64,000 nt of DNA from Trissonchulus latispiculum. Lineage: Eukaryota > Nematoda > Enoplea > Enoplida > Ironidae. Within the stretch, counting starts at the first letter, position 1; every line of letters begins with the position of its first letter. The stretch is taken from assembly GCA_030248195.1 (NCBI GenBank), contig JASAND010006629.1, forward strand, positions 30,832-94,831, written 5' to 3'. The notes under the pieces were generated by a model. It did not search any database. It had not been told where the DNA came from and saw only the letters and a program-made list of their open reading frames with translations. Below, piece after piece: positions 3,201 through 64,000 of the stretch. The translations under genes and the position numbers were made by a program.

Positions 3201-43654
<40,454 letters not shown>

Positions 43655-48003: not shown

Positions 48004-49212
48004 GTGTTCTGGTGCCTGATTTGCCGTAATTCACTTAACAACCGGGCAGTTTCATCGCAAATCCTTTTAAATGCCCAGCTAACCGGACATGAAAAATCTG
48101 ACATGCTGCTAATCTGAGAACGGTCGCCAGTATGTAGAGATTTGGGTACAGTGAAATGAATTTCTGGACAAACGATTTAATCACAGGACTAAACGTGTAG
48201 AAGGTACACCCTGAGGAGTGTGACTCCCGACAAATAAATCCCCGGAAACTACGAAGATTGCAAAAGTTCTACCGACTGTGCGTATGCCAGATTCAACTCG
48301 TCAAATTACCCTACCCAACTACAAAAAGGAGAAGACAAAGCTAATTAACAGTGCGAGTTTATTAATTGTTAACAAAAAATATATTTCACCAAAATGAGTT
48401 TACAAAAAGACACCAGTGCTAAATTTTGATACAAACCAGAAGCCCAACAAACCTGACCGAAAAATCATAAACGAATAGACAATAGGAAAAAGGGTGCCTA
48501 CAAGGCGAAAAGTTAATGAGGCGCACACATAGAAAAAGAACCCGCGTACACTTGACAAGAGTTCACTCCCAACTGAAGGTTACGCGCCCAAATTTGAGTC
48601 AGAAAGTGAATTTGCTAAATCCGGCCTTGAACCGTACACAGAAGTACAATTTTAAATTGATTGTCCATGAATTTAGCATTACATTTGTTAATTTTGAATT
48701 CAAAATATCGGAAATAACAGAAATAACTCCACACCATTTTTGTGAATACACGGCATAGCATTTTCGTGCGTACCAGAAAAAGCAATTCACAAAACACGAA
48801 TAAATTATCTAGCACAACTACCTATGCAGTCAACCACTAATAACATAGTGAATTCCAGAGTTATTGTAAATGAAAATCAATCGTTGCCGAAGCTTAAAGC
48901 CCCACGAACAAAAAACAAAATCGAGGGATCATCAAGCAATTTTAAAAAAGCAAACTTAACGACACACATAAATAAATAGAGAATTGTTGGTGTATGGATG
49001 AGAAATGGACTCATCACTAGACTAAAAGTAGTATAAAAACCCAGGTTCCAGCTCACTTAGTTAATAGTTCTGGCTTCTACTGGCTATGCGCTTTTACACA
49101 CTAGTAGCTACAATGAAGTTCTATACCCTTAGCCTTAAATTGAATTAGCTTTTTACGACCTAAGGTTTGTAACAACTATGACCTTGAAATTCTAACCAGC
49201 CCTAAAATCCGT
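48004..49212. other. Spacer left of the palindromic element
   Basis: No gene or bounded repeat recognised. Confidence 0.4.
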
Positions 49213-49739
49213 AGTAGTATAGGAGACATCAAATGGGACCAGTTTGTACAGGTATGCTGGAGTCAAATGGGAGCTAATTAATCATACAGGTAAGGTCATT
49301 AATCATGGAGGCAGATGTTCTCAAGGTCATTGTTGGCCAATTTTGCCTTTAGCTTAGATAAGCTTTGTAACATTGTACTAAATTTTTAACACAGTGTTAT
49401 TGGACTATATTGTCTACGTATGTAACTTTACCTATGTACTTATCTAGTTTGTTTACCTGCCTAATTAGTGTTTATTAATTAACGGTCTAATTAAGTAATA
49501 TGAAGTAACATTTTCAAACTTTTTATTTACCTGACTGTTTGCCAATAGATTCTTACCTATCTATCTCAGCATCGTATAGACCAAAAATATTATTGCAAAA
49601 TTTTCTTCCCTTATCAACTAAAATTTTCCATTTCTTGTTTCATATTGAATTTCTTCATCTGGACCTTTGTACTAACCTTGAAACGGAAGACATGTAACAC
49701 TTAAAGAAGACAAGATTGTTACGTACTTCAGAATATACT

Positions 49740-50445
49740 GATGTTAGCTGCCTGCTAGTGTTAGCATATCTTTAGCATACTGAGGACTCAAACCTGTCAA
49801 AAGTCTTTCTCCCTGCTAGCTGCCTGCTAGTGTTAGCATATCTTTAGCATACTGAGGACTCAAACCTGTCAAAAGCCTTTCTCTCCCTGCTTGCTTAAAA
49901 TTTTCTTCCCCTATTAGCAGCCTTCTAGTGTTAGCATATCTTTAGCATACTGAGGACTCAAACCTGTCAAAAGTCTTTCTCCCTGCTAGCCCCCCTCTAG
50001 TGTTAGCATACCTTTAGCATAGTGAGGACTCAAACCTGTCACTATTTTTCTTCCCCTGCTAGCTGCCTGCTAGTGTTAGCATATCTTTAGCATACTGAGG
50101 ACTCAAACCTGTCAAAAAATTTTCTCTCCCTGCTTGCTTAAAATTTTCTTCCCCTATTAGCTGCCTGCTAGTGTTAGCATATCTTTAGCATACTGAGGAC
50201 TCAAACCTGTCACCACTTTTTCTCTTCCTGCTAGCTGCCTTCTAGTGTTAGCATATCTTTAGCATACTGAGGACTCAAACCTGTCAAAAGTCTTTCTCCC
50301 TGCTAGCTGCCTGCTAGTGTTAGCATATCTTTAGCATACTGAGGACTCAAACCTGTCAAAAGCCTTTCTCCCTGCTAGCTTAAAATTTTCTTCCCCTATT
50401 AGCTGCCTTCTGGTGTTAGCATATCTTTAGCATACTGAGGACTTT
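49740..50445 (+). repeat. Iteron-like subterminal repeats, left arm
   Basis: Nine copies of a core TTAGCATATCTTTAGCATAC followed by TGAGGACTCAAACCTGTCA. Start-to-start spacings are about 73, 98, 72, 73, 98, 74, 72 and 96 bp, a higher-order pattern of about 243 bp. Inside each core TTAGCATA occurs twice, 11 bp apart (one helical turn), as protein-binding iterons often do. Confidence 0.9.
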
Positions 50446-50539
50446 AACCTGTCTCCCAAAGCTTACCAATTCGCCTTACCTAGTTTGATTGCACCTGTCT
50501 CATTGAAATTAAAGACGTAAACATTGGTTGAAAATGAAA

Positions 50540-51095
50540 ATTTTATGTCTCCAATTACGTAATATTGGCAACACTTATCACACTAATTTTGGTGTCAACG
50601 TAAAGAGCAAACCGTGAACCAACTTCGGTCACCTATTGGTAATTATTTGTTGGCTAGTTAGTTAGTAATAATTGGTTAAAGTTGACTATGAAAATTGGCT
50701 GAAAATGTGTGATTTTAATTTTATGTCTCCAATTACGCAAGATTGGGAAAACTTTATGTGATAAGTTTTATGTCAACGTAAAGAGCAAACCGTGAACCGA
50801 CTTCGGTCAACTAATTTTGATTAGTAGTTAACTAATTAGTTAGTAATAATTTATTAAAGTTAACTATGGCTGAAAATGGGTGATTATAATTTTATGTCTC
50901 CAATTACGCAAGATTGTTGACACATATTGGGTTAATTATGGTGCCTGTGTAATAAAGTAATAATGAACTAACTTCGGTCACCTGTCGATAATTATAGGTT
51001 AACTAATTAGTTAATAATTAATTAAATGTGACTCGAAAAATTTGTGTGTAATGAATATGACAACAATTACGTGAAATTGGGAATAGGCTAAAGGT
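50540..51095 (+). repeat. hr-like repeats, left arm
   Basis: Three good units and one decayed unit of about 165-180 bp, each with ATGTCTCCAATTACG, a GTAAAGAGCAAACCGTGAAC or related string, ACTTCGGTCACC and an AT-rich TTAGTTAGTAATAAT tail. They lie just upstream of the CARD gene, where they could act as promoter or enhancer or as replication sequences. Confidence 0.8.
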
Positions 51096-51315
51096 TAAAA
51101 GAAAAAGAGTATACAACATTTGTTCAATAATTAACTCCTAACTATGACCTGAACAAGGCAATACAAAATTGATATATGTGTACAGCCTATTTTATGAAAC
51201 CTAGCACAAGAATGCTGCAAAGTTTAGACATATATTGCAAGTTTGGTAGGTTTATTAACCCTACTGACATTGACTTTCACCATACTTGTTGACTTAACTA
51301 TACATCACCACGACA

Positions 51316-52064
51316 ATGAATTCCGTTGAGACTGGTAAGATATTTAATTGTAGCATTTTTAAAAGTTGTAATTTTAATGATTGCATTTTAGTAGTTGCAT
51401 TTTTCAGTCATTCACATTTTATCTAATATATTTTAGCCATTGTATTTTTTAACGATTGTATTTTTTTAGTCATTGTCACATTTTTAGCAGTTGTGAACAT
51501 TCCGTAGTTTTCAGAGTTTAGGCATTGTAAAATATTATTTGTTGCTGAAATGTTCCAGGTTCACCATCTGTGGAAAAGATCATTGACAATTTGGTTATTC
51601 TTTGTGATGAAATGGATCCAGCGCCCGTGGCAGACTATATGGTTGAACATCGGCGGATAACCCCGGATTATCGAGATATCATCAAGTCCGAAACAAGATA
51701 CGATGGAGTGTTTGATCTCCTACTGCGACTAAAGCGGAGCAAAGATATCGTGCCCCTGCTCCACGAGGCCTTGGTTCAATCGAAGCAGTACAATCTAGCC
51801 AAACTATTCGAAGGAGGAACCAAGGAGAAAGGGGTCACGTGGAAGATTTACACAAAGAGCAAATATTTGCTAAGAGAAAGCCAGGACACCTTCCCTACGG
51901 TACAAGCAGCGAGACTGGACGCAGCGGTGGCCCTTGGACCCTTGGGATGCGACAACCGTGCCGTCGTATTCATCGAGTGGATTGGAAATTCTATGGTGAA
52001 ACAGTGGAATGTGCCGGAATGGTTCGTATCTCCGTGGAATCATCAGGACTGCAAAGAACACTAA
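51316..52064 (+). CDS. CARD-domain protein, left copy (2 exons)
   Basis: Exon 1 is 51316-51334 (MNSVETG, donor GGTAAGA); exon 2 is 51559-52064 (acceptor TTCCAG), giving 174 residues. Residues about 8-96 match the helical pattern of a caspase-recruitment domain, for example ITPDYRDIIKSE, then GVFDLLLRLKRS, then LLHEALVQSKQYNLAKLFEG. The C-terminal 80 residues, with conserved Trp (EWIGNSMVKQWNVPEWFVSPW), are not recognised. CARDs mediate homotypic assembly in apoptosis and RIG-I/MAVS-type sensing; a viral or element copy could act as a decoy, which is inference. The start was chosen because both arms keep this ATG and splice donor. Confidence 0.7.
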
Positions 52065-52079
52065 CAATTGCATAGCACC

Positions 52080-52290
52080 ATTGACTATTATTATTACTAT
52101 TATTGACTCATATGGCATTACTCATGTACAGTAAACCATTGACTATTATTACTATTATTATTGCATAACACTGTTAACCATTATTATTGAATAACAGTAA
52201 ACCATTGCATAACACTGTAGTATTGCATATTACTGTAAAATGTTGCATACAGTAAACGAAATGTTACGGATAACATTAGTTGCAATGTAG
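52080..52290. repeat. TTATTA/TTGCATA simple-repeat spacer between convergent genes
   Basis: A short-period repeat between the convergent 3' ends of the CARD and dsRBD-like genes. The right-arm equivalent is longer and contains a pure (TAA)n run at 55458-55515. Confidence 0.7.
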
Positions 52291-52298
52291 GTAGGCAG

Positions 52299-52685
52299 TT
52301 AGCCATGAAAAAACGGATTTTTGAGCATTTCTGCTTCTAGCCTGTCTAGCATATTGTAGATGGGTTGAATACTTCTGCGATATCTTTTGTATTCACGTAG
52401 GTCCCTCATCTTATCCCTGACTGCATCAATTTCGTAGATATGAGGTCTTGGTGGTAATCCGCATTCACGTCTGATGAGATGTTCGTCGCCGTGACATAAC
52501 GTACCGTAGGCTTTACGAGAAACTTCCTCAATGGCAGTACGTGGGTCAGGACATTGTGAGCTTGTCCATGTCTTACTGCCTATAGTCATGACTGCAACAT
52601 AATGACCGGTAATCTCAATGCGAATAGGTGGACTTTGGCGCAGGGCCTTTTGTAACAGTTCGTTCAACAGGCTTCGGGCAGACAT
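52299..52685 (-). CDS. dsRBD-like 128-aa protein, left copy
   Basis: Residues about 4-63 follow the double-stranded-RNA-binding-domain order helix-strand-strand-strand-helix: SLLNELLQKAL, IRIEITG, YVAVMTIGSKTWTSSQCP, then the helix RTAIEEVSRKAYGTL. The canonical Lys-Lys motif at the start of the last helix is not conserved (DPRTAIEE), so RNA binding is uncertain. Residues 85-122 are a charged helical region (RDKMRDLREYKRYRRSIQPI). The ATG lies 6 nt after the TBP-like stop codon, implying a shared transcript or virus-like packing. Both copies encode the same protein, with three synonymous differences that I counted. Confidence 0.55.
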   Translation of the reverse strand: MSARSLLNELLQKALRQSPPIRIEITGHYVAVMTIGSKTWTSSQCPDPRTAIEEVSRKAYGTLCHGDEHLIRRECGLPPRPHIYEIDAVRDKMRDLREYKRYRRSIQPIYNMLDRLEAEMLKNPFFHG

Positions 52686-52691
52686 GATGCA

Positions 52692-53186
52692 CTAATGAAC
52701 TTTAAACCTTATCACCTTCTTATTAACTAAAGACCTTGCATCTGATAGGGCAGACTCACTTCGAGCACCAGTTAATATGACCTTGCCAGTGTGGAAAATG
52801 AGTGCAGTAACTTTGGCAATCTTACACGTGAGACCATTAAATAGCTCCGGTTCATAGCAAACTTGATGGGTATGCCTGATACTTTCATATAAATTCCTTA
52901 GGTCTATATACCTGCCAACTGAGAAGGATCCCACCAGGTTCACCACTTCGCCTTCGCGAAGAATACCGACATTAAGAGCGCCTGCTAGTTGACGAATACA
53001 CTGATTAGCTCGTTCGATTGATTTACATCCGAGGCAAACAAAACTACCACTGGTGAATAATTGGAAAGTCGCCTCCTCGTGTTTCAGACTACCGCCAATA
53101 AATCCACGATAGAGTCTAATGTTAGGAATGTTCGTTAAGTGAAGTTCCCTGTCAAAGCGTCCACTGAGAACAACATTAACAATCAT
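52692..53186 (-). CDS. TBP-like protein, left copy
   Basis: 164 residues: a core made only of the two TBP repeats (about 2-74 and 82-163), with no N-terminal tail. Repeat 2 is very close to eukaryotic TBP: YEPELFNGLTCKI followed by ALIFHTGKVILTGARSE. The DNA-intercalating Phe pair of repeat 2 is present (F116, F131). In repeat 1 the pair aligns as Y26 and F44. It probably binds a TATA-like promoter and recruits TFIIB/Pol II, or competes with host TBP. It is divergent from the host-type sequence in repeat 1 (LHLTNIPNIRLYRGFIGG). It starts 49 bp from the divergent 98-aa ORF. Confidence 0.85.
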   Translation of the reverse strand: MIVNVVLSGRFDRELHLTNIPNIRLYRGFIGGSLKHEEATFQLFTSGSFVCLGCKSIERANQCIRQLAGALNVGILREGEVVNLVGSFSVGRYIDLRNLYESIRHTHQVCYEPELFNGLTCKIAKVTALIFHTGKVILTGARSESALSDARSLVNKKVIRFKVH

Positions 53187-53235
53187 TGTTACCCCCTTGG
53201 TATCCTTATTAATATCACATCTCCCTCACTTATTA

Positions 53236-53532
53236 ATGTGGAACACTAAGGTATCACCCCACGTCTATAAAAAGCATGGTAGTAGGGCTAATACAAAGAC
53301 GGCATCTAAATTCTATGGTAATAAGAAGCGAATAGAGGTACTGTTAAAGTGCGCCGTACAAGATCCTGACTATGGCTACTGGTGCAAATTCCCAAGAAGG
53401 GCATTCCTTTTTAAACTATACGAAACTCCAATTGGTCAAAGGAGTTCCCTGTATAATCACAAGCCTTCTCATAAAATTTTTATTGTCTACGATTGTATTA
53501 GCGATTTTGTTGTCACAGCATACCCAGTGTAA
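53236..53532 (+). CDS. 98-aa ORF overlapping the membrane-protein gene, left copy
   Basis: Starts MWNTKVSPHVYKKHGSRANT and is basic (KKHG, GNKKRIEV). From 53372 on it overlaps the membrane-protein frame. It is open in both arms, but since the arms are so similar this is weak evidence. The alternative is that 53236-53371 is only 5' leader. Function unknown. Confidence 0.4.
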   Translation: MWNTKVSPHVYKKHGSRANTKTASKFYGNKKRIEVLLKCAVQDPDYGYWCKFPRRAFLFKLYETPIGQRSSLYNHKPSHKIFIVYDCISDFVVTAYPV

Positions 53533-53626
53533 GCTACCACCACTGAAGGATTCCGTTACGATAGACAATGCCATCTTTATTCATAATGGTTGGACTGAGC
53601 ACCTTGTATTACTTGTAAGTTTCTAG
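53372..53626 (+). pseudogene. Truncated membrane protein, left copy
   Basis: Same protein as the 149-aa right copy for about 76 residues, then TEHLVLLVSF and a TAG where the right copy has a His codon and continues. The arm homology fades at this point, so the Cys-rich ectodomain is lost. The membrane segment remains. Confidence 0.7.
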
Positions 53627-53670
53627 TTTCAGTCTATATTACGGATCCATCCATTTATAAAATTGTTGCT

Positions 53671-53772
53671 TTATGAGAGTGTGATCCATGCAGGTAGTTC
53701 ATATCGTCTGCATTTATTCTTGTGGTAGCGGCTGAGGCGGATCAGGCTCTGGAGTGCCTTATAGATACCCAT
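53671..53772 (-). CDS. Small basic 33-aa ORF in the palindrome centre
   Basis: Starts MGIYKALQSLIRLSRYHKNK and ends TAA at 53671-53673. It lies in the unpaired centre, 48 bp after the stop of the 149-aa membrane protein and on the same strand, so it fits the tight packing but is too short to support alone. It could also be the first exon of something disrupted. Confidence 0.3.
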   Translation of the reverse strand: MGIYKALQSLIRLSRYHKNKCRRYELPAWITLS

Positions 53773-53820
53773 GGTGCAATATATGGAATAGAGGTATTTA
53801 CACCAGTATCGTAGGCCTAC

Positions 53821-54270
53821 TTATTGACTATAGAGCTGGTATATCTGGTCTGCTGTAAAACTGACAGGACCAACAAAGCCACAAAGGACACGCTTATCTT
53901 GATCCAGGCAAAGAGTTGTCTCGTTATATGTGGATGTGTAAGGACACGGTATCGACCCGTTGATATAGACTGGGCATTGGAAGTTTAGACAATTGTAGAT
54001 GAATTGGCGGATCTCGTGAAAGCTATCAAGTGATACCTGGTGCTCAGTCCAACCATTATGAATAAAGATGGCATTGTCTACCGTGACGGAGTCCTTCAGT
54101 GGTGGTAGCTTACACTGGGTATGCTGTGACAACAAAATCGCTAATACAATCGTAGACAATAAAAATTTTATGAGAAGGCTTGTGATTATACAGGGAACTC
54201 CTTTGACCAATTGGAGTTTCGTATAGTTTAAAAAGGAATGCCCTTCTTGGGAATTTGCACCAGTAGCCAT
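53821..54270 (-). CDS. Single-pass membrane protein with Cys-rich ectodomain, right copy
   Basis: 149 residues. A 24-residue N-terminal part is followed by a hydrophobic segment (about 25-48, VPCIITSLLIKFLLSTIVLA). The remaining 100 residues carry six Cys (53, 94, 99, 109, 121, 130) and two N-glycosylation sequons (N104-GS, N116-ET). This is a type II arrangement like many virion envelope proteins; baculovirus-type PIF proteins have a comparable layout, but I see no diagnostic motif. Its C-terminal half lies in the unique centre of the palindrome. Confidence 0.65.
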   Translation of the reverse strand: MATGANSQEGHSFLNYTKLQLVKGVPCIITSLLIKFLLSTIVLAILLSQHTQCKLPPLKDSVTVDNAIFIHNGWTEHQVSLDSFHEIRQFIYNCLNFQCPVYINGSIPCPYTSTYNETTLCLDQDKRVLCGFVGPVSFTADQIYQLYSQ

Positions 54271-54406
54271 AGTCAGGATCTTGTACGGCGCACTTTAACA
54301 GTACCTCTATTCGCTTCTTATTACCATAGAATTTAGATGCCGTCTTTGTATTAGCCCTACTACCATGCTTTTTATAGACGTGGGGTGATACCTTAGTGTT
54401 CCACAT
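54110..54406 (-). CDS. 98-aa ORF overlapping the membrane-protein gene, right copy
   Basis: Same predicted 98-residue product as the left-arm ORF at 53236-53532. Overlaps the start of the 149-aa membrane protein in another frame. Function unknown; coding status unproven. Confidence 0.4.
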   Translation of the reverse strand: MWNTKVSPHVYKKHGSRANTKTASKFYGNKKRIEVLLKCAVQDPDYGYWCKFPRRAFLFKLYETPIGQRSSLYNHKPSHKIFIVYDCISDFVVTAYPV

Positions 54407-54455
54407 TAATAAGTGAGGGTGATGTGATATTAATAAGGATACCAAGGGGATAACA

Positions 54456-54950
54456 ATGATTGTTAATGTTGTTCTCAGTGGACGCTTTGACAGGGAACTT
54501 CACCTAACGAACATTCCTAACATTAGACTCTATCGTGGATTTATTGGCGGTAGTCTGAAACACGAAGAGGCAACTTTCCAATTATTCACTAGTGGTAGTT
54601 TTGTTTGCCTCGGATGTAAATCAATCGAACGAGCTAATCAGTGTATTCGTCAACTAGCAGGCGCTCTTAATGTCGGTATTCTTCGCGAAGGCGAAGTGGT
54701 GAACCTGGTGGGATCCTTCTCAGTTGGCAGGTATATAGACCTAAGGAATTTATATGAAAGTATCAGGCATACCCATCAAGTTTGCTATGAACCGGAGCTA
54801 TTTAATGGTCTCACGTGTAAGATTGCCGGGGTTACTGCACTCATCTTCCACACTGGCAAGGTCATATTAACTGGTGCTCGGAGTGAGTCTGCCCTATCAG
54901 ATGCAAGGTCTTTAGTTAATAAGAAGGTGATAAGGTTTAAAGTTCATTAG
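54456..54950 (+). CDS. TBP-like protein, right copy
   Basis: 164 residues, differing from the left copy at one position (KIAGVTAL instead of KIAKVTAL; an AAA-to-GGG codon change), while several codons differ only silently (for example GAG/GAA, GCG/GCA, ACC/ACT in the first repeat). Both repeats and the repeat 2 Phe pair are intact. It is followed after 6 nt by the dsRBD-like gene. Confidence 0.85.
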   Translation: MIVNVVLSGRFDRELHLTNIPNIRLYRGFIGGSLKHEEATFQLFTSGSFVCLGCKSIERANQCIRQLAGALNVGILREGEVVNLVGSFSVGRYIDLRNLYESIRHTHQVCYEPELFNGLTCKIAGVTALIFHTGKVILTGARSESALSDARSLVNKKVIRFKVH

Positions 54951-54956
54951 TGCATC

Positions 54957-55343
54957 ATGTCTGCCCGAAGCCTGTTGAACGAACTGTTACAAAAGGCCCT
55001 GCGCCAAAGTCCGCCTATTCGCATTGAGATTACCGGTCATTATGTTGCAGTCATGACTATAGGCAGTAAGACATGGACAAGCTCACAATGTCCTGACCCA
55101 CGTACTGCCATTGAGGAGGTGTCTCGTAAAGCCTACGGTACGTTATGTCACGGCGACGAACATCTCATCAGACGTGAATGCGGATTACCACCAAGACCTC
55201 ATATCTACGAAATTGATGCAGTCAGGGATAAGATGAGGGACCTACGTGAATACAAAAGATATCGCAGAAGTATTCAACCTATCTACAATATGCTAGACAG
55301 GCTAGAAGCAGAAATGCTCAAAAATCCGTTTTTTCATGGCTAA
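54957..55343 (+). CDS. dsRBD-like 128-aa protein, right copy
   Basis: Protein identical to the left copy (52299-52685). The nucleotide differences I found (GAA/GAG, GTT/GTG, CCC/CCT) are silent. Convergent with the right-arm CARD gene across a microsatellite spacer. Confidence 0.55.
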   Translation: MSARSLLNELLQKALRQSPPIRIEITGHYVAVMTIGSKTWTSSQCPDPRTAIEEVSRKAYGTLCHGDEHLIRRECGLPPRPHIYEIDAVRDKMRDLREYKRYRRSIQPIYNMLDRLEAEMLKNPFFHG

Positions 55344-55454
55344 CTGCCTACCTACCAACTAATGTTATCCGTAACATTTCGTTTACTGTATGCAATCAGT
55401 GTTATGCAATACTACAGTGTTATGCAATGGTTTACAGTAGTGTTATCTAATACC

Positions 55455-55457
<3 letters not shown>

Positions 55458-55515
<58 letters not shown>
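55458..55515. repeat. (TAA)n microsatellite
   Basis: Pure run expanded only in the right arm. Confidence 0.95.
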
Positions 55516-55516
<1 letters not shown>

Positions 55517-55673
55517 GTCAATGGTTTGCAGTGATTATGCAATACTACACTGTTATTCAATAATAATGGCTTACAGTGTTATGCAATAATAATAGTCAAT
55601 GGTTTACTGTACATGAGTAATGCCATATGAGTCAATAATAGTAATAATAATAGTCAATGGTGCTATGCAATTG

Positions 55674-56399
55674 TTAGTGTTCTTTACAGTCCTGGTGATT
55701 CCATGGGGATACGAACCATTCCGGCACATTCCATTGTTTCACCATAGAATTTCCAATCCACTCGATGAATACGACGGCACGGTTGTCGCATCCCAAGGGT
55801 CCAAGGGCCATCGCTGCGTCCAGTCTCGCTGCTTGTACTGTAGGGAAGGTGTCCTGGCTTTCTCTTAGCAAATATTTGCTCTTTGTGTAAATCTTCCACG
55901 TGACTCCTTTCTCCTTCGTTCCTCCTTCGAATAGTTTGGCCAAGTTGTACTGCTTCGACTTCACCAAGGCCTCGTGGAGCAGGGGCACGATATCTTTGCT
56001 CCGCTTTAGTCGCAGTAGGAGATCAAACACTCCATCGTATCTTGTTTCGGACTTGATGATATCTCGATAATCCGGGGTTATGCGCCGATGTTCAACCATG
56101 TAGTCTGCCACGGGCGCTGGATCCATTTCATCACAAAGAATAACCAAATTATCAATGATCTTCTCCACAGATGGTGAACCTGAAACATAAGTAATAATTT
56201 TCACACAACAAATAATGCTAATCTAAAAACTATGAAATGTTCAAACTGTAATATGTAATGTTTAAAATTGTAATGTGTTCAACTGCTAAAAATGTGACGA
56301 TCAAAATTTGAATGACTGAAAAAATACAACTACTCAAATGCAATCATTAAAAATACAACTTTTAAAAATGCTACAATTAAAAATCTTACCGGAATTCAT
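55674..56399 (-). CDS. CARD-domain protein, right copy (2 exons)
   Basis: Exon 1 is 56390-56399 (ATGAATTCCG, donor GTAAGA) and exon 2 is 55674-56179 (acceptor TTTCAG), giving 171 residues. Exon 1 is 9 nt shorter than in the left arm, so the protein starts MNSGSPSVEK with the frame kept. Against the left copy I see two further amino-acid changes (Gln to Lys, Val to Met) and about ten silent ones. The upstream in-frame ATG inside the intron would give an alternative start and is not favoured. Confidence 0.7.
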
Positions 56400-56619
56400 T
56401 GTCACGGTGATGTAAAATCTGGTGATTCAAATGTCAGTAAGGTGAATAAACCTGCCAAACTTACAATATATGTCTAAACTTTGCAGCATTCTTGTGCTAG
56501 GTTTCATAAAATAGGCTGTACACATATATCAATTTTGTATTGCCTTGTTCAGTTCATATCCTTGTTCATTAATTATTGAACAAAAGTTGTATTGTCCTTT
56601 TCTTTTAACTTTTAGTATA

Positions 56620-57010
56620 TTCCCAGTTTCACGTAATTGTTGTCACATTACACACAAATTTTCATAGTCACCTTTAATTATTATTAACTAATTAGTTAAC
56701 CTATAATCATCAACAGGTGACCGAAGTTAGTTCATTATTACTTTATTACACAGGCACCATAATTAACCAAATAGGTGTCAACAATCTTACGTAATTGGAG
56801 ACATAAAATTAAAATGACCCATTTTCAGCCATAGTCAACTTTCATAAATTATTACTAACTAATTAGTTAACTACTAAACAAAATTAGTTGACCGAAGTTA
56901 GTTCAACAGTTTGCTCTTTACGTTGACATAAAACTTATCACATAAAGTTTTCCCAATCTTGCGTAATTGGAGACATAAAAAAAGTATTGCCAATATTACG
57001 TAATTGGAGA
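56620..57010 (-). repeat. hr-like repeats, right arm
   Basis: Inverted counterpart of 50540-51095, with the CCAATTACG and GACCGAAGTTAGTTCA motifs; shorter, with indels. Confidence 0.8.
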
Positions 57011-57114
57011 CATAAAATTTTCATTTTCAACCAATATGTTTACGTCTTTAATTTCAATGAGACAGGTGCAATCAAACATAGGTAAGGCGAATTGGTAAGC
57101 TTTGGGAGACAGGT

Positions 57115-57550
57115 TTAAGTCCTCAGTATGCTAAAGATATGCTAACACTAGAAGGCAGCTAATAGGAGAGAAATTTTTACTTTTGACAGGTTTGAGTCCC
57201 AGTGTTAAATATATAGATTTTTGACAGCTTTGAGTCCTAGCAGCTAAGATATGCTAACACTAGAAAATTTTAAACAAGCAGGGGAGAAAGACTTTTGACA
57301 GGTTTGAGTCCTCAGTATGCTAAAGATATGCTAACACTAGAAGGCAGCTTTTGACAGGTGAGTAGTATGGAAAGATAAAAGTAGCTAGCAGGGAGAAGAC
57401 TTTTGACAGGTTTGAGTCCTCAGTATGCTAAAAATATGCTAACACTAGAAGGCTGCTAATAGGGAAAAAAATTTTAAGCAAGCAGGGAGAGAAAAGCTTT
57501 TGACAGGTTTGAGTCCTCAGTATGCTAAAGATATGCTAACATTAGAAGGC
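57115..57550 (-). repeat. Iteron-like subterminal repeats, right arm
   Basis: Four good copies (near 57121, 57311, 57418, 57516) and degenerate ones of GTATGCTAAAGATATGCTAA; fewer and more decayed than the nine on the left. Confidence 0.85.
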
Positions 57551-58153
57551 AGCTAGCAGGGAGAAAATTATAAATGAAGATATTTAAAGTGTATTCTGAA
57601 GTACGTAACTAACAATCTTGTCTTCTTTAAGTGTTTGTTACATGTCTTCCATTTCAAGGTTAATACAAAGGTCCAGATGTCATATAGAAGGAAATGCAGG
57701 AAAAGAAAATTTTAGTTATGAAAGGAAAATGGAAAAAAATTGTAGAAATATAGTTGGCATTTACAACCTTGAGCTGACAGGTAAGAACCGTCATTGACAA
57801 ATAGGTAAATAAAAGTTTGAAAAAAGTATGAAAATGTTACTTCATAATACTTAATTAGACCACTAATTAATAAACACTAATTAGGCAGGTAAACAAACTA
57901 TAGTCTAGCAAACTTAAAGTTAAATACGTAGGCAATATAGTCCAATAACACTGTGTTAAAAATTTAGTACAATGTTACAAAGCTTATCTAAGCTAAAGGC
58001 AAAATTGGCCAATAATGACCTTGAGAACATCTGCACCAACGGCTAGCATGATTAATGACCTTACCTGTATGATTAATGACCCTATTCGTCAAAGCCAGAA
58101 TGAAGCCAAAATACCTGTACAAAGAGGTCCCATCTGTCGGCTCCTATACTACT

Positions 58154-59810: not shown

Positions 59811-60720
59811 GGAACCACGGTCGACCCAAGCTTAAATTTAAAAATTGTCAATTTTCGCCGGGAAAACTTTATATAGGGGGTTTTCAGGGTCGTAGAATTC
59901 GAAAATCACATTAGTTTTTCTATCCTACGTAAGCTCCGTGCTCTATGTGACCCTTGCCCGGAACCACGGTCGACCCAATCTAAAATTGAAATTTGACCAT
60001 TTTCTCTGGAAAAACTTTTTATAGGGGTTTTTAGGGTCGTAGAATTCGAAAATGATATTTAAGTTGTCCTATCCTACGTAAGCTCCGTGCTCTATGTGAC
60101 CCTTGCCCGGAACCACGGTCGACCCAATCTTAAAATTGAAATTTGACCATTTTCTCTGGAAAAACTTTTTATAGGGGTTTTTAGGGTCGTAGAATTCGAA
60201 AATGATATTTAAGTTGTCCTATCCTAGGTAAGCTCCGTGCCCTGAGTGACCCTTGCCCGGAACCTTAGCTGACCCAAGCTTAAATTTAAAAATCGTCCAT
60301 TTTCTTTGGAAAAACTTTCTATAGGGGGTTTTCAGGGTCGTAGAATTCGAAAATCACATTAGTTTTCCTATCCTACGTAAGCTTCGTGCCCTGAGTGACC
60401 CTAGACCGGAACCTTAGCTGACCCAAGCTTAAATTTAAAAATCGTCCATTTTCTTTGGAAAAACTTTCTATAGGGGGTTTTCAGGGTCGTAGAATTCGAA
60501 AATCACATTAGTTTTCCTATCCTACGTAAGCTTCGTGCCCTGAGTGACCCTAGACCGGAACCTTAGCTGACCCAAGCTTAAATTTAAAAATTGTCCATTT
60601 TCTTTGGAAAAACTTTGTATAGGGGGTTTTCAGGGTCGTAGAATTCGAAAATCACATTAGTTTTCCTATTCTACGTAAGCTCCATGCTCTAGATGACCCT
60701 AGACCGGAACCTTAGCTGAT
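59811..60720. repeat. 149-bp tandem satellite, about six units
   Basis: GGAACC markers occur at 59811, 59960, 60109, 60259, 60408, 60557 and 60706, a period of 149-150 bp. Units share TCAGGGTCGTAGAATTCGAA and CCTACGTAAGCT. Two subtypes appear: the first copies have ACCACGGTCGACCC, later ones ACCTTAGCTGACCC. Confidence 0.93.
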
Positions 60721-60991: not shown

Positions 60992-61006
60992 CTCCCACTT
61001 ATCCAC
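60992..61006 (-). promoter_or_regulatory. Polypurine tract of the copia element
   Basis: GTGGATAAGTGGGAG on the minus strand overlaps the pol stop codon (60999-61001). The 3' LTR would begin right after it; the usual TG start is not clear here (TATTAG), and the second LTR is outside the window. Confidence 0.55.
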
Positions 61007-64000
61007 TTATCTCATGAATACCAATTTTATAGCGAAGATTTTTAAATTTCATTTTATGTAGTGGCTTCGTAAGTATATCTGCTTGCATTTCGGTTGTAGG
61101 GCAGTAGATCACGGACAATTCTTTGTTGTTGACCTTTTCACGGATGAAATGATGCTTGATTTCAATATGCTTGTTTCTGGCATGGCAAACAGGATTCTTG
61201 ACCATTGAAATACAGCTTTGGTTGTCTTCAAAGATTAGAGTTGACTCTTTTTGCTCGAATCCTAATTCTTTAAGAAGACTGCGAAGCCACAGAGCCTCTT
61301 TTGTGGCAAAGCTTAGGGCCACGTATTCTGCTTCAGCGGTTGAAAGGGCTACTGTGGGTTGTTTCTTGCTCATCCAACTAACTGGACCTTCAGCAAGTTT
61401 AAAAATGTAGCCCATTGTTGACTTCCTATCATTGACGTCACCAGCCCAGTCAGAATCGCAGTAGCCATGAAGGATAACCTCCGAACCCGAACCCGAACGT
61501 TTGTAAGTAATACCCATCGTCAAGGTTCCTTTTACATAGCGTAAAATTCGTTTCACTGCTTGCCAGTGAAGCAAACCTGGATTGTTGGTGAACTGGCAAA
61601 CAACTCCCACTGAAGCTGCTAAATCGGGTCTAGTTGCAACAGTTGCATAAAGCAAACTGCCAGTCATGGCCTGATAGCATCTTCGCTGAGTTTCGTCTAA
61701 TTCTTGATCCTTGGAGACTTCTTTGGACAGCTTCAAACCAGGATCCATGGGAACTGTAGCTGGCTTACAGTCCTTCATCCCAAACTTCTCTAATACCTTT
61801 TCCAAATAACGCTTTTGACTAAGACGCATTTCTTTTCTTTGCTGATCGTAGGCAATTTCCACCCCAAGGTAGTAGTGGACTCTTCCCATATCTTTCATTT
61901 TAAATCTTTGTTTCAGAGTATTCTTTGTTTCTTCCAGTAAGGTTGTACTTTTCGTCACTATTAACAAATCGTCCACGTAAAGTGCCAGGACAACTTTTTC
62001 ATCTTTCTCGGTTTTGTGGTAGAGGCAGGCATCTGACTCGACCTTGATGAAACCACTCCTCTGAAGATAGTCATCTAAGGTCTGGTTCCAGCATCTTGGA
62101 GCCTGTTTTAACCCATACAGACTTCGCTGCAACTTGCAAACATGATCCTTTTTATCCTCTTTTACAAAACCTTCTGGTTGCTCCATGAAGATTTCTTCTG
62201 ACAGTGAACCATAGAGAAACGCGGTCGTTACATCCATTTGATGGACATCCATTCCTTCTTCAACAGCCAACGCCAGCAGCGTGCGCACTGTTGTAAATTT
62301 TACAACTGGTGCGAACGTTTCTTCGTAGTCGACTCCATAATTTTGTGAATATCCTTTCGCTACAAGCCGTGCCTTGAATCTCTCTATGGAGCCGTCAGAC
62401 TTGTATTTCACCTTGAATATCCATCGGCACTTGATTGGTGTTCGGCCTTCTGGTAAAGGAACCAATTTCCATGTGTCATTTTCTTCCAAGGAGTCCATTT
62501 CGGATCTAGCTGCTGCCTTCCATTCTGCAGCATGATTACTGTTCATAGCTTCCGTCATGGTAGCTGGTTCATCTATCTGGGCTCCAACACATGCAAAATG
62601 CACATGTGGTCTGGTAGCATCTTTCAGGGTTTCTCCAATTTGATCGTATGGAACAGGTTGACGTCTGATTCTTTTAGAAAGTCTTTCAGGAACCGGTCTT
62701 TCAGGAACCACAACTGGATCAGCTTCTACATCGACTTCTGCATCAGCTTCTACATCCTTTTCTTCTTCTGAACTGTCTTCAGACTCAACAACCACAGTCT
62801 TCCTGTCGCCTGTGTGACAATCGGCAAAAGTTGATTCATCAAATATGACGTCTCTGGCAACAATCACCTTCTGCTTCTCTATGTCGTACAGTCTGTAGCC
62901 TTTGGCTTTAGTACTGTAGCCTACAAATCTGCACTTCCGGGACTTTGAATCAAACTTGCTTCTGTTTACTTTTGGAACATGTGCAAAAGCGAAACAGCCG
63001 AATACTCGTGCGTGAGCCACACTTGGCATTCGTCCGAAGAATGCCTCAAATGGAGTCATTCCTTCGACAGTTCTGGTCAAACATCTGTTTCGTAGATACG
63101 CAGCAGTCGAAGTTGCTTCTGCCCAAAACTTCTTGGACAGATTGGCCTGCTGGAGCATCGACCGGGCAGATTCAACCAAGGTTCTGTTTAACCTTTCAGC
63201 TGTTCCGTTTTGTTCTGGCGTACTTGGAACAGTGTACTGATGTATAATCCCTTTCATTTTACAGAAATCTTCAAACGGGGAATTTGTGTACTCTGTTCCA
63301 TTATCAGTACGCAAGACTTTTATCTTCTTTCCAGTGAAATTGGTAACTTCAGCTTCATATTCTTGAAACTTCCGCAAAACATCGCTTTTCTTTTTGAGAA
63401 AATAGACGTGGGTATAGTGCGACTTTTGATCGATAAAAGTTAGAAAGAATCGTGACCCACCAATCGAAACGTTTTTCATGGGTCCACAAACATCGGAATG
63501 TACAATTTCTAAAACTTCGGATGGTTTATAGGAACTTTCTTTAGGAAACACTTGTCTACATTGTTTTCCTTCGACGCATGCTTCACAAAACTTTAGATGA
63601 GTTTGTTGTATCTTTGGAATACCTTTTACCAACTGCTGATTTGACATCAGTTTGAGGGTTTCAGAATTCAATTGCCCTAAGCGTTGATGCCAAACATCGA
63701 ATTCTTCCGTAGCAGCAACGCTGGCAATATTACCTGAATTCCAACTACAGTTCAACTTATAAAGTTTACCAGTTAACCCAGCCAGTCCCAGAAGTCTTCC
63801 CCTGCAAGAAATAGAGCAGCCATCTTTAGTGAATTTCACAGTTTTGTGGTTTTTAGTTATGGCCCGCACGGACAGGAGGTTCAGGGTGAGCTTGGGTACA
63901 TAGAAGACATTCCTAAATGAAACAGTTTGGTTACCCTTGGGCAGGTGCATTATCATGGCTATATTGCCACACCCAACAGCTTGCACCACTCTTCCATCTC
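60999..64000 (-). CDS. pol: Ty1/copia polyprotein (pol), 5' part beyond window
   Basis: One uninterrupted frame of about 1,000 codons, open through the window edge; the gag and protease parts are missing from view. In order: GAG-pre-integrase with an HHCC zinc finger (WHQRLGQLNSETL, then CEACVEGKQC), an integrase core with D-D-E residues in HSDVCGP, RTDNGTE and NGTAERLNRTL, reverse transcriptase with RFKARLVAKGYSQ, MDVTTAFLYG, YGLKQAPRCW and the catalytic LYVDDLLI, then RNase H with CDSDWAGD, STAEAEYVA and EDNQSC. The integrase-before-RT order is diagnostic of copia. The lack of stops suggests recent activity. It is inserted next to the 149-bp satellite. Confidence 0.95.
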   Translation of the reverse strand, partial: DGRVVQAVGCGNIAMIMHLPKGNQTVSFRNVFYVPKLTLNLLSVRAITKNHKTVKFTKDGCSISCRGRLLGLAGLTGKLYKLNCSWNSGNIASVAATEEFDVWHQRLGQLNSETLKLMSNQQLVKGIPKIQQTHLKFCEACVEGKQCRQVFPKESSYKPSEVLEIVHSDVCGPMKNVSIGGSRFFLTFIDQKSHYTHVYFLKKKSDVLRKFQEYEAEVTNFTGKKIKVLRTDNGTEYTNSPFEDFCKMKGIIHQYTVPSTPEQNGTAERLNRTLVESARSMLQQANLSKKFWAEATSTAAYLRNRCLTRTVEGMTPFEAFFGRMPSVAHARVFGCFAFAHVPKVNRSKFDSKSRKCRFVGYSTKAKGYRLYDIEKQKVIVARDVIFDESTFADCHTGDRKTVVVESEDSSEEEKDVEADAEVDVEADPVVVPERPVPERLSKRIRRQPVPYDQIGETLKDATRPHVHFACVGAQIDEPATMTEAMNSNHAAEWKAAARSEMDSLEENDTWKLVPLPEGRTPIKCRWIFKVKYKSDGSIERFKARLVAKGYSQNYGVDYEETFAPVVKFTTVRTLLALAVEEGMDVHQMDVTTAFLYGSLSEEIFMEQPEGFVKEDKKDHVCKLQRSLYGLKQAPRCWNQTLDDYLQRSGFIKVESDACLYHKTEKDEKVVLALYVDDLLIVTKSTTLLEETKNTLKQRFKMKDMGRVHYYLGVEIAYDQQRKEMRLSQKRYLEKVLEKFGMKDCKPATVPMDPGLKLSKEVSKDQELDETQRRCYQAMTGSLLYATVATRPDLAASVGVVCQFTNNPGLLHWQAVKRILRYVKGTLTMGITYKRSGSGSEVILHGYCDSDWAGDVNDRKSTMGYIFKLAEGPVSWMSKKQPTVALSTAEAEYVALSFATKEALWLRSLLKELGFEQKESTLIFEDNQSCISMVKNPVCHARNKHIEIKHHFIREKVNNKELSVIYCPTTEMQADILTKPLHKMKFKNLRYKIGIHEISG

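Follow-up and report, generated by a model that had tools for sequence, protein, structure and literature searches.

In a 64,000-nucleotide stretch of the genome of the nematode Trissonchulus latispiculum (contig JASAND010006629.1; 'the window' below), positions 49213-58153 hold two inverted arms, each with genes for a TATA-binding protein (TBP), a dsRBD-like protein and a CARD-like protein. This feature probably represents two truncated right ends of Polinton/Maverick elements arranged head to head. The family is present in many copies and carries its own TBP, which likely starts transcription of the element. Judged by sequence, the family is Polinton/Maverick and the cassette in the window is its right end, the full unit being about 15.6 kb long. 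A sequence-only reading had proposed that an endogenous viral segment or a mobile unit of viral origin couples its own transcription factor to an immune-modulating module, the palindrome being the element itself. A mobile unit of this kind with its own TBP, and probably with CARD-like and dsRBD-like partners, is supported. That the palindrome is the element is not: the cassette is the right end of a longer Polinton, and the arms group with different copies.

An intact relative and its gene content

The searched genome comprises 733.8 Mb in 21732 contigs. At least 151 matches to the window TBP (876 candidates, 150 scored) and at least 150 to the CARD-like gene (773 candidates, 150 scored) were found. 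Twenty copies were fetched as 9.9-kb stretches; they carry the TBP gene in 20/20 cases, the dsRBD-like gene in 20/20 and the CARD-like gene in 19/20 (L014 lacks it), some of these genes being broken. Matches to an ATPase and an integrase lie past a membrane-type open reading frame (ORF) in 18 of the 20 (exceptions L017 and L023). Thus, the further copies and linked viral genes that the sequence-only reading had suggested looking for do exist in the same genome, and the linked genes are those of Polintons.

One relative, on contig C14075, is intact. It extends from a left outer terminus at 34510 to a right terminus at 50135 (15,626 bp) and is flanked by the target-site duplication (TSD) GTGGTC. 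Leftward from the cassette follow an ATPase, two small ORFs, an integrase with a chromodomain, more ORFs, a capsid-like protein, an ORF in the protease position and PolB. In Pfam comparisons the predicted PolB (1130 amino acids) matches PF03175 above the cut-off (E 1.3e-16), and the integrase matches both rve (PF00665, E 6.3e-15) and Chromo (PF00385, E 7.3e-10). The ATPase has a weak Pox_A32 match of its own (E 0.1) and is 35% identical (E 1e-32) to the ATPase of a second TBP-bearing family in this genome (family ii, described below), which passes the Pox_A32 cut-off (E 1.3e-07); the A32/FtsK-type packaging ATPase characteristic of Polintons is therefore recognised through the family-ii relative. 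The capsid-like protein matches PF21738 below the cut-off (E 0.017) and its family-ii counterpart at 22% identity (E 8e-25). Based on this gene content, the termini and the TSD, we conclude that the C14075 element is a Polinton/Maverick.

Elements of the family have AGT-type inverted ends, with AGTAGTATA... at both element ends. Besides C14075, perfect 6-bp TSDs were observed at C6870 (GAGGAG), C11342 (AATATT) and C4263 (TACAAG), that is, in four of nine two-ended copies; five of the 12 left-end stretches fetched for the TSD test had no usable end pair (L032, L033, L034, L040, L041). The two 30-bp ends are identical in C6870, C11342, C4869 and C13606, again four of the nine. A 186-bp sequence flanking the left window arm has at least 40 scored matches (152 candidates), the window included. 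It opens with a second terminus, AGTAGTATAAAAACCC, stops where AGTAGTATAGGAG starts, and is found inverted at both ends of C12328. This nested structure indicates that some copies end at the outer terminus and others at the inner one. A target-site preference as the cause of the shared 186-bp flank was considered and rejected, because the flank opens with a second terminus and lies inverted at both C12328 ends.

Several observations weigh against this interpretation of the window. No Polinton core gene, PolB and integrase included, was found in the window itself. Its arms have no TSD, the bases being ATCCGT or ACTAAA on the left versus TAAGCA on the right, and five of the nine two-ended copies (C4869, C4676, C13606 with 4/6 bases equal, C16129 and C12328) have no perfect TSD either. 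The capsid-like protein has no relative in the PDB and its family-ii counterpart has no Pfam match; the ORF in the protease position (157 amino acids, in the expected place) has no Pfam match up to E 10, and the ORF in the PX position has none.

Arrangement and origin of the inverted arms

Arm alignments and ORFs bear out the earlier description of two inverted arms with the same ordered gene set. Identity between the arms falls from the centre (52197-53615 versus 55435-54027, 97.7%) through the middle (50719-52217 versus 56980-55529, 89%) to the outer parts (49277-49739 versus 58077-57588, 82%), with ungapped blocks of 1336 nucleotides at 98% and 602 nucleotides at 97%, far above chance. From the outside inwards, each arm carries in mirrored order the CARD-like gene, the dsRBD-like gene, the TBP gene and the membrane-type ORF. 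The matching 13-bp outer ends were also confirmed (AGTAGTATAGGAG at 49213 and CTCCTATACTACT at 58153). The repeat arrays, said to lie outside the arms, are instead located within them, between the genes and the ends. The two arms do not meet symmetrically: the left one ends at 53622 within the membrane-protein gene, and the right one begins at 53701, past that gene's end. The 78-bp filler between them has no match in any of six element copies compared, and the 186-bp extension with its second terminus is present on the left arm, none being seen on the right arm.

To place the arms among other copies, a tree was built from 14 arm sequences, the two in the window and those of 12 copies out of the 20 fetched; L014, L017 and the set L023-L028, which is more diverged, were left out. 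L020 and L019 are the partners of the left arm (support 1.0), and the right arm clusters with L012 (0.72) and L018 (0.93). When eight segments were compared with 12 copies (L009-L020), the best match of the left arm was never the right arm, and the best match of the right arm was the left arm once, in the dsRBD segment only; recombination among copies could blur placement in both analyses. Since the arms group with different copies, they are not the product of one inverted duplication, an origin that the tree placement and the segment identities reject. We infer that the arrangement is a junction between the right ends of two strains. The two right ends might have been joined by two insertions followed by loss of the intervening DNA; alternatively, a chimeric genome with two right ends may have integrated, as at C4379. 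Most differences between the arms are synonymous (7 of 9 in TBP, 4 of 4 in the dsRBD-like gene, 17 of 20 in the CARD-like gene), a pattern as if they had been gathered in replicating lineages. The membrane-type ORF departs from this pattern, with five synonymous and five nonsynonymous differences, and the sign of constraint there is weak, a further point on the opposing side. The ORF overlapping it has no synonymous and one nonsynonymous difference.

The strongest competing explanation, which we nevertheless regard as unlikely, is that the palindrome is a mobile, defective double-right-end Polinton with the TBP/dsRBD/CARD cassette, integrated in trans by the integrase of a helper. Its best support comes from C4379 (L017:2868-9241), a 6374-bp unit with two right termini, a perfect TSD (CATTTG), a cassette of one TBP, one dsRBD-like and one CARD-like gene, and a single, marginal tblastn match to core genes (27.5% identity, E 0.005); its arms are about 85% identical. 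The perfect TSD means that double-right-end units can integrate, and both window arms, too, finish in intact termini. However, the window lacks a TSD, and a TSD-flanked case was found only once. The two terminal sequences of the palindrome part after their initial 13 bp, in contrast to the identical 30-bp ends noted above, but this is a weak point because C14075 and C4379, both TSD-flanked, likewise have unequal ends. Long inverted arms were found among the 20 fetched stretches only in L017, the matches in L023 and L025 being shorter than 200 bp. An excess of inverted pairs (nine contigs with inverted pairs versus one with a direct pair, counted by eye among the matches listed, with a CARD pair 0.9 kb apart on C8700 set aside) was not used as evidence for satellites, because both pairs whose ends could be checked, C14533 and C15215, keep their mirror symmetry into the flanking DNA. 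In C5733, the TBP frame is broken at the same place in both arms, which suggests that these arms arose by duplication.

An assembly or library artefact joining two copies of a high-copy repeat is less probable still, and we consider it doubtful. The family offers ample material for such joining (hundreds of candidate matches, many near-identical), and the inverted pairs of C14533 and C15215 (L065-L068) remain mirror-symmetric into the 14 flanking bases shown, which also counts against our interpretation of the window. With symmetry reaching into the flanks, these two pairs more readily fit folded-read artefacts or inverted duplications of host DNA. In contrast, the window arms group with different copies and differ in their flanks, unlike a folded read, and a distinct 78-bp filler occupies the centre.

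The right-end cassette and its TBP

The identification of the window gene as a TBP holds. Its right copy matches PF00352 in two stretches (Pfam, E 5.8e-29), in keeping with the two-lobe fold, and solved TBPs are retrieved in a PDB profile search with E 6e-16 for the right copy and E 3e-20 for the family profile. Most of the TBP matches listed have no internal stop. Where computable, the ratio of nonsynonymous to synonymous substitution rates (dN/dS) is 0.08-0.12 for TBP, 0.05-0.20 for the CARD-like gene and 0-0.18 for the dsRBD-like gene, with dS near saturation in the widest comparisons; in most comparisons the CARD-like protein is the most diverged of the set. By these estimates the three genes form a right-end cassette under purifying selection.

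In alignments, the window TBP keeps four phenylalanines and the YEPEL motif, and its N-lobe stirrup is altered. We take the four phenylalanines to correspond to the DNA-intercalating residues of known TBPs; the two glutamates of YEPEL presumably contact TFIIB. The retrieved excerpts of PMC7221094 describe both roles in agreement with this.

The apparent host TBP is present on C14517 as two separate exon-like matches, 32% identical to the window TBP; the host gene thus seems to be split by an intron, which, like a collagen-repeat ORF in the window, fits an animal genome. Given that TBP is a host protein and that this genome has an apparent one of its own, the element gene could be a recent host capture amplified without function. 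We find this very improbable: the window TBP is only 32% identical to the host protein, the TBPs of families i (that of the window) and ii are 32-37% identical to one another and 29-35% to the host, with gaps relative to the host in common, and the genes show purifying selection rather than neutral dN/dS across lineages.

The low identity between families i and ii, together with the gaps that they share relative to the host protein, suggests that their TBPs derive from an old element lineage. A genome search with PF00352 gave 1271 candidates, of which 150 were scored, and all those listed lie above the cut-off. The family-ii TBP is about 175 amino acids long (for example on C700; L058, L050, L059). 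The family-ii element also has a PolB sharing 56% identity with the C14075 PolB over 553 residues, an integrase, an ATPase, a capsid-like protein, a NADAR domain (E 1.9e-32) and a possible Bcl-2-like ORF below the cut-off (E 0.016). A third TBP type (L057, C8841) adjoins an integrase with a chromodomain; TBP-like ORFs of L052 and L054 share 42-47% identity with it. The PF03175 search yielded no usable co-location of PolB with TBP among the 77 candidates scored of 935. Many of the PF03175 candidates listed in this first look have open frames of 1100-1430 amino acids, and the genome seems very rich in Polinton-type PolB elements.

The CARD and dsRBD folds named in the sequence-only reading are plausible but weak assignments, resting in part on predicted structures. 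Five of seven members of the CARD-like family match PF00619 (best E 0.0048), and the match displayed in full falls short of the curated cut-off. In Foldseek, the top three of nine hits are Apaf-1/caspase-9 structures (E 2.6-4.2) for a model with a predicted local distance difference test score (pLDDT) of 41. The dsRBD-like model has a predicted alpha-beta3-alpha fold (pLDDT 50), and dsRBD proteins make up most of its best 50 of 305 Foldseek hits (best E 0.12). On the other side, both pLDDT values are low, the PDB profile search ranks designed helical proteins (E 2.8e-06) over the Apaf-1 CARD (E 1.3), and the dsRBD-like protein has no Pfam match and finds no dsRBD in the PDB profile search.

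The element TBP is a likely initiator of transcription of its own genes, as far as its conserved residues and the upstream DNA indicate. It would bind TATA-like DNA in the element through the kept phenylalanines, for example at TATAAAC upstream of the ATPase gene. The kept YEPEL stirrup would recruit host TFIIB and then Pol II for transcription of the element's genes, and the altered N-lobe might evade regulators of the host TBP. The CARD-like and dsRBD-like proteins may act as decoys that counter death-fold and dsRNA sensing. In 16 of 18 copies, TATAAAC lies no more than 70 bp upstream of where the ATPase gene starts, compared with 42 of 5842 (0.7%) 70-bp strand windows; the 16 cases are not independent, because the copies are related. 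This dependence, the restriction of the finding to one gene cluster and the lack of a TATA sequence in most other upstream regions again tell against the proposed role. In L024 and L026 the TATA-bearing unit upstream of the ATPase gene is part of a tandem repeat.

Many eukaryotic DNA viruses are regarded as relatives or descendants of Polintons; to our knowledge, little is established about how Polintons are transcribed and what reactivates them. With a TBP of their own, they would possess a promoter-recognition factor that can be separated from the host's. Such a TBP could explain escape from host silencing and would also be a small, testable orthogonal TBP. Polinton families appear to differ in their accessory genes (CARD-like and dsRBD-like versus NADAR and possibly Bcl-2-like), each with a TBP. 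We tentatively raise a broader possibility: animal Polintons may long have had their own transcription-initiation system, as three strongly diverged TBP types beside Polinton-type genes in one genome would suggest, with different apoptosis- or RNA-sensing-like genes next to two of the three. The cassette may also travel on its own as double-right-end satellites that are integrated in trans, the window palindrome being a decayed case and C4379 one with a TSD.

Known systems and other features of the window

Statements on the literature refer to retrieved excerpts of the cited papers. Compared with described Polintons/Mavericks (Polintoviricetes; animal adintoviruses; PMC8097293, PMC11071308), the family is alike in its PolB, RVE integrase with chromodomain, ATPase, capsid-like gene, AGT-type inverted ends, 6-bp TSD, length of 15.6 kb and accessory region at one end, such regions being known from Mavericks (PMC8097293). 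It is set apart by an accessory region with genes for a TBP, a dsRBD-like and a CARD-like protein, and by nested double termini 186 bp apart. The words TATA, TBP and CARD were not found in PMC11071308; PMC8097293, which was searched for TATA and CARD but not for TBP, gave neither, and PMC10120064 gave neither TATA nor TBP. Two papers that combine adintovirus and TATA wording (PMC12220804, PMC11640650) describe no TBP gene in the excerpts retrieved. A TBP in a Polinton was not found in the open-access papers examined; the main adintovirus paper (veaa055), which was not among them, may report such genes, and both terms also occur in PMC4602308, PMC12085832 and PMC7786948.

TBPs are known from large dsDNA viruses (PMC7221094), mirusviruses (PMC10132985), a giant virus (PMC11464507) and mirusvirus-like insertions (PMC10675990). 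The element TBP resembles those of large dsDNA viruses in its two-lobe fold and key phenylalanine positions. In viral TBPs the TFIIB-contact positions vary, and almost all TBP-bearing viruses, poxviruses apart, have a TFIIB-like protein (PMC7221094), whereas the element TBP keeps YEPEL and no TFIIB-like protein was found among the C14075 ORFs scanned with Pfam. A functional parallel, made without sequence comparison, is ORF24 of Kaposi's sarcoma-associated herpesvirus (KSHV), which replaces TBP at viral promoters (PMC12529657); it is likewise a virus protein in the role of TBP, but a herpesvirus protein belonging to a six-factor complex. No relatives were found in viral contigs searched with the TBP (as protein and alignment), the capsid-like protein and the family-ii TBP; protein database searches with the dsRBD-like, TBP and CARD-like proteins gave no relatives, and PHROGs gave integrase matches plus one weak match and nothing else. 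Descent from a nimavirus or another large nuclear DNA virus, for which the TBP-like proteins of some large dsDNA viruses (PMC7221094) and mirusviruses (PMC10132985) could be cited, is highly improbable, as the core genes identified beside the cassette are those of Polintons, no viral-contig relative was found, and no nimavirus link turned up, no search having been aimed at nimavirus genes.

Table 1. Features of the inverted arrangement (window coordinates)
Feature	Position	Strand	Basis
Left-arm outer terminal extension, 186 bp, opening with second terminus AGTAGTATAAAAACCC	49027..49212		40 scored genome matches, window included
Left arm, probable truncated Polinton right end, terminus at 49213	49213..53622	-	arm alignment, termini, tree
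Left-arm tandem array, units of 72-73 bp	49745..50453		repeat analysis
Left-arm tandem array, 178 bp	50539..51023		repeat analysis
CARD-like gene, left copy, ORF open from 51549	51570..52064	+	ORF, Pfam, Foldseek
dsRBD-like gene, left copy	52299..52685	-	ORF; fold evidence taken from right copy
TBP gene, left copy, 164 amino acids, two lobes	52692..53186	-	99% identical to Pfam-tested right copy
Membrane-type ORF, left copy, cut off at junction	53372..53626	+	ORF
Junction filler, 78 bp	53623..53700		matches 0/6 element copies tested
Right arm, probable truncated Polinton right end, grouping with other copies, terminus at 58153	53701..58153	+	termini, segment identities, tree
Membrane-type ORF, right copy, 149 amino acids, intact	53821..54270	-	ORF
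Overlapping 111-amino-acid ORF of unknown function	54110..54445	-	ORF
TBP gene, right copy, 164 amino acids	54456..54950	+	Pfam, PDB profile search
dsRBD-like gene, right copy	54957..55343	+	predicted structure, Foldseek; no Pfam match
CARD-like gene, right copy, true start uncertain	55674..56204	-	Pfam, Foldseek
Right-arm tandem array, unit about 97 bp	57393..57567		repeat analysis

Elsewhere in the window, an ORF at 5223-5831 (- strand) has a weak match to the CG-1 domain below the cut-off (E 0.0005), and an ORF with collagen triple-helix repeats at 33549-33935 (+ strand; PF01391, E 5.8e-22) is probably an exon of a long-intron host gene. A 149-bp satellite array at 59823-60719 contains six copies with 92% matches, and a Copia-type retrotransposon ORF of 996 amino acids with RVT_2, rve and related domains occupies 60999-63989 (- strand).

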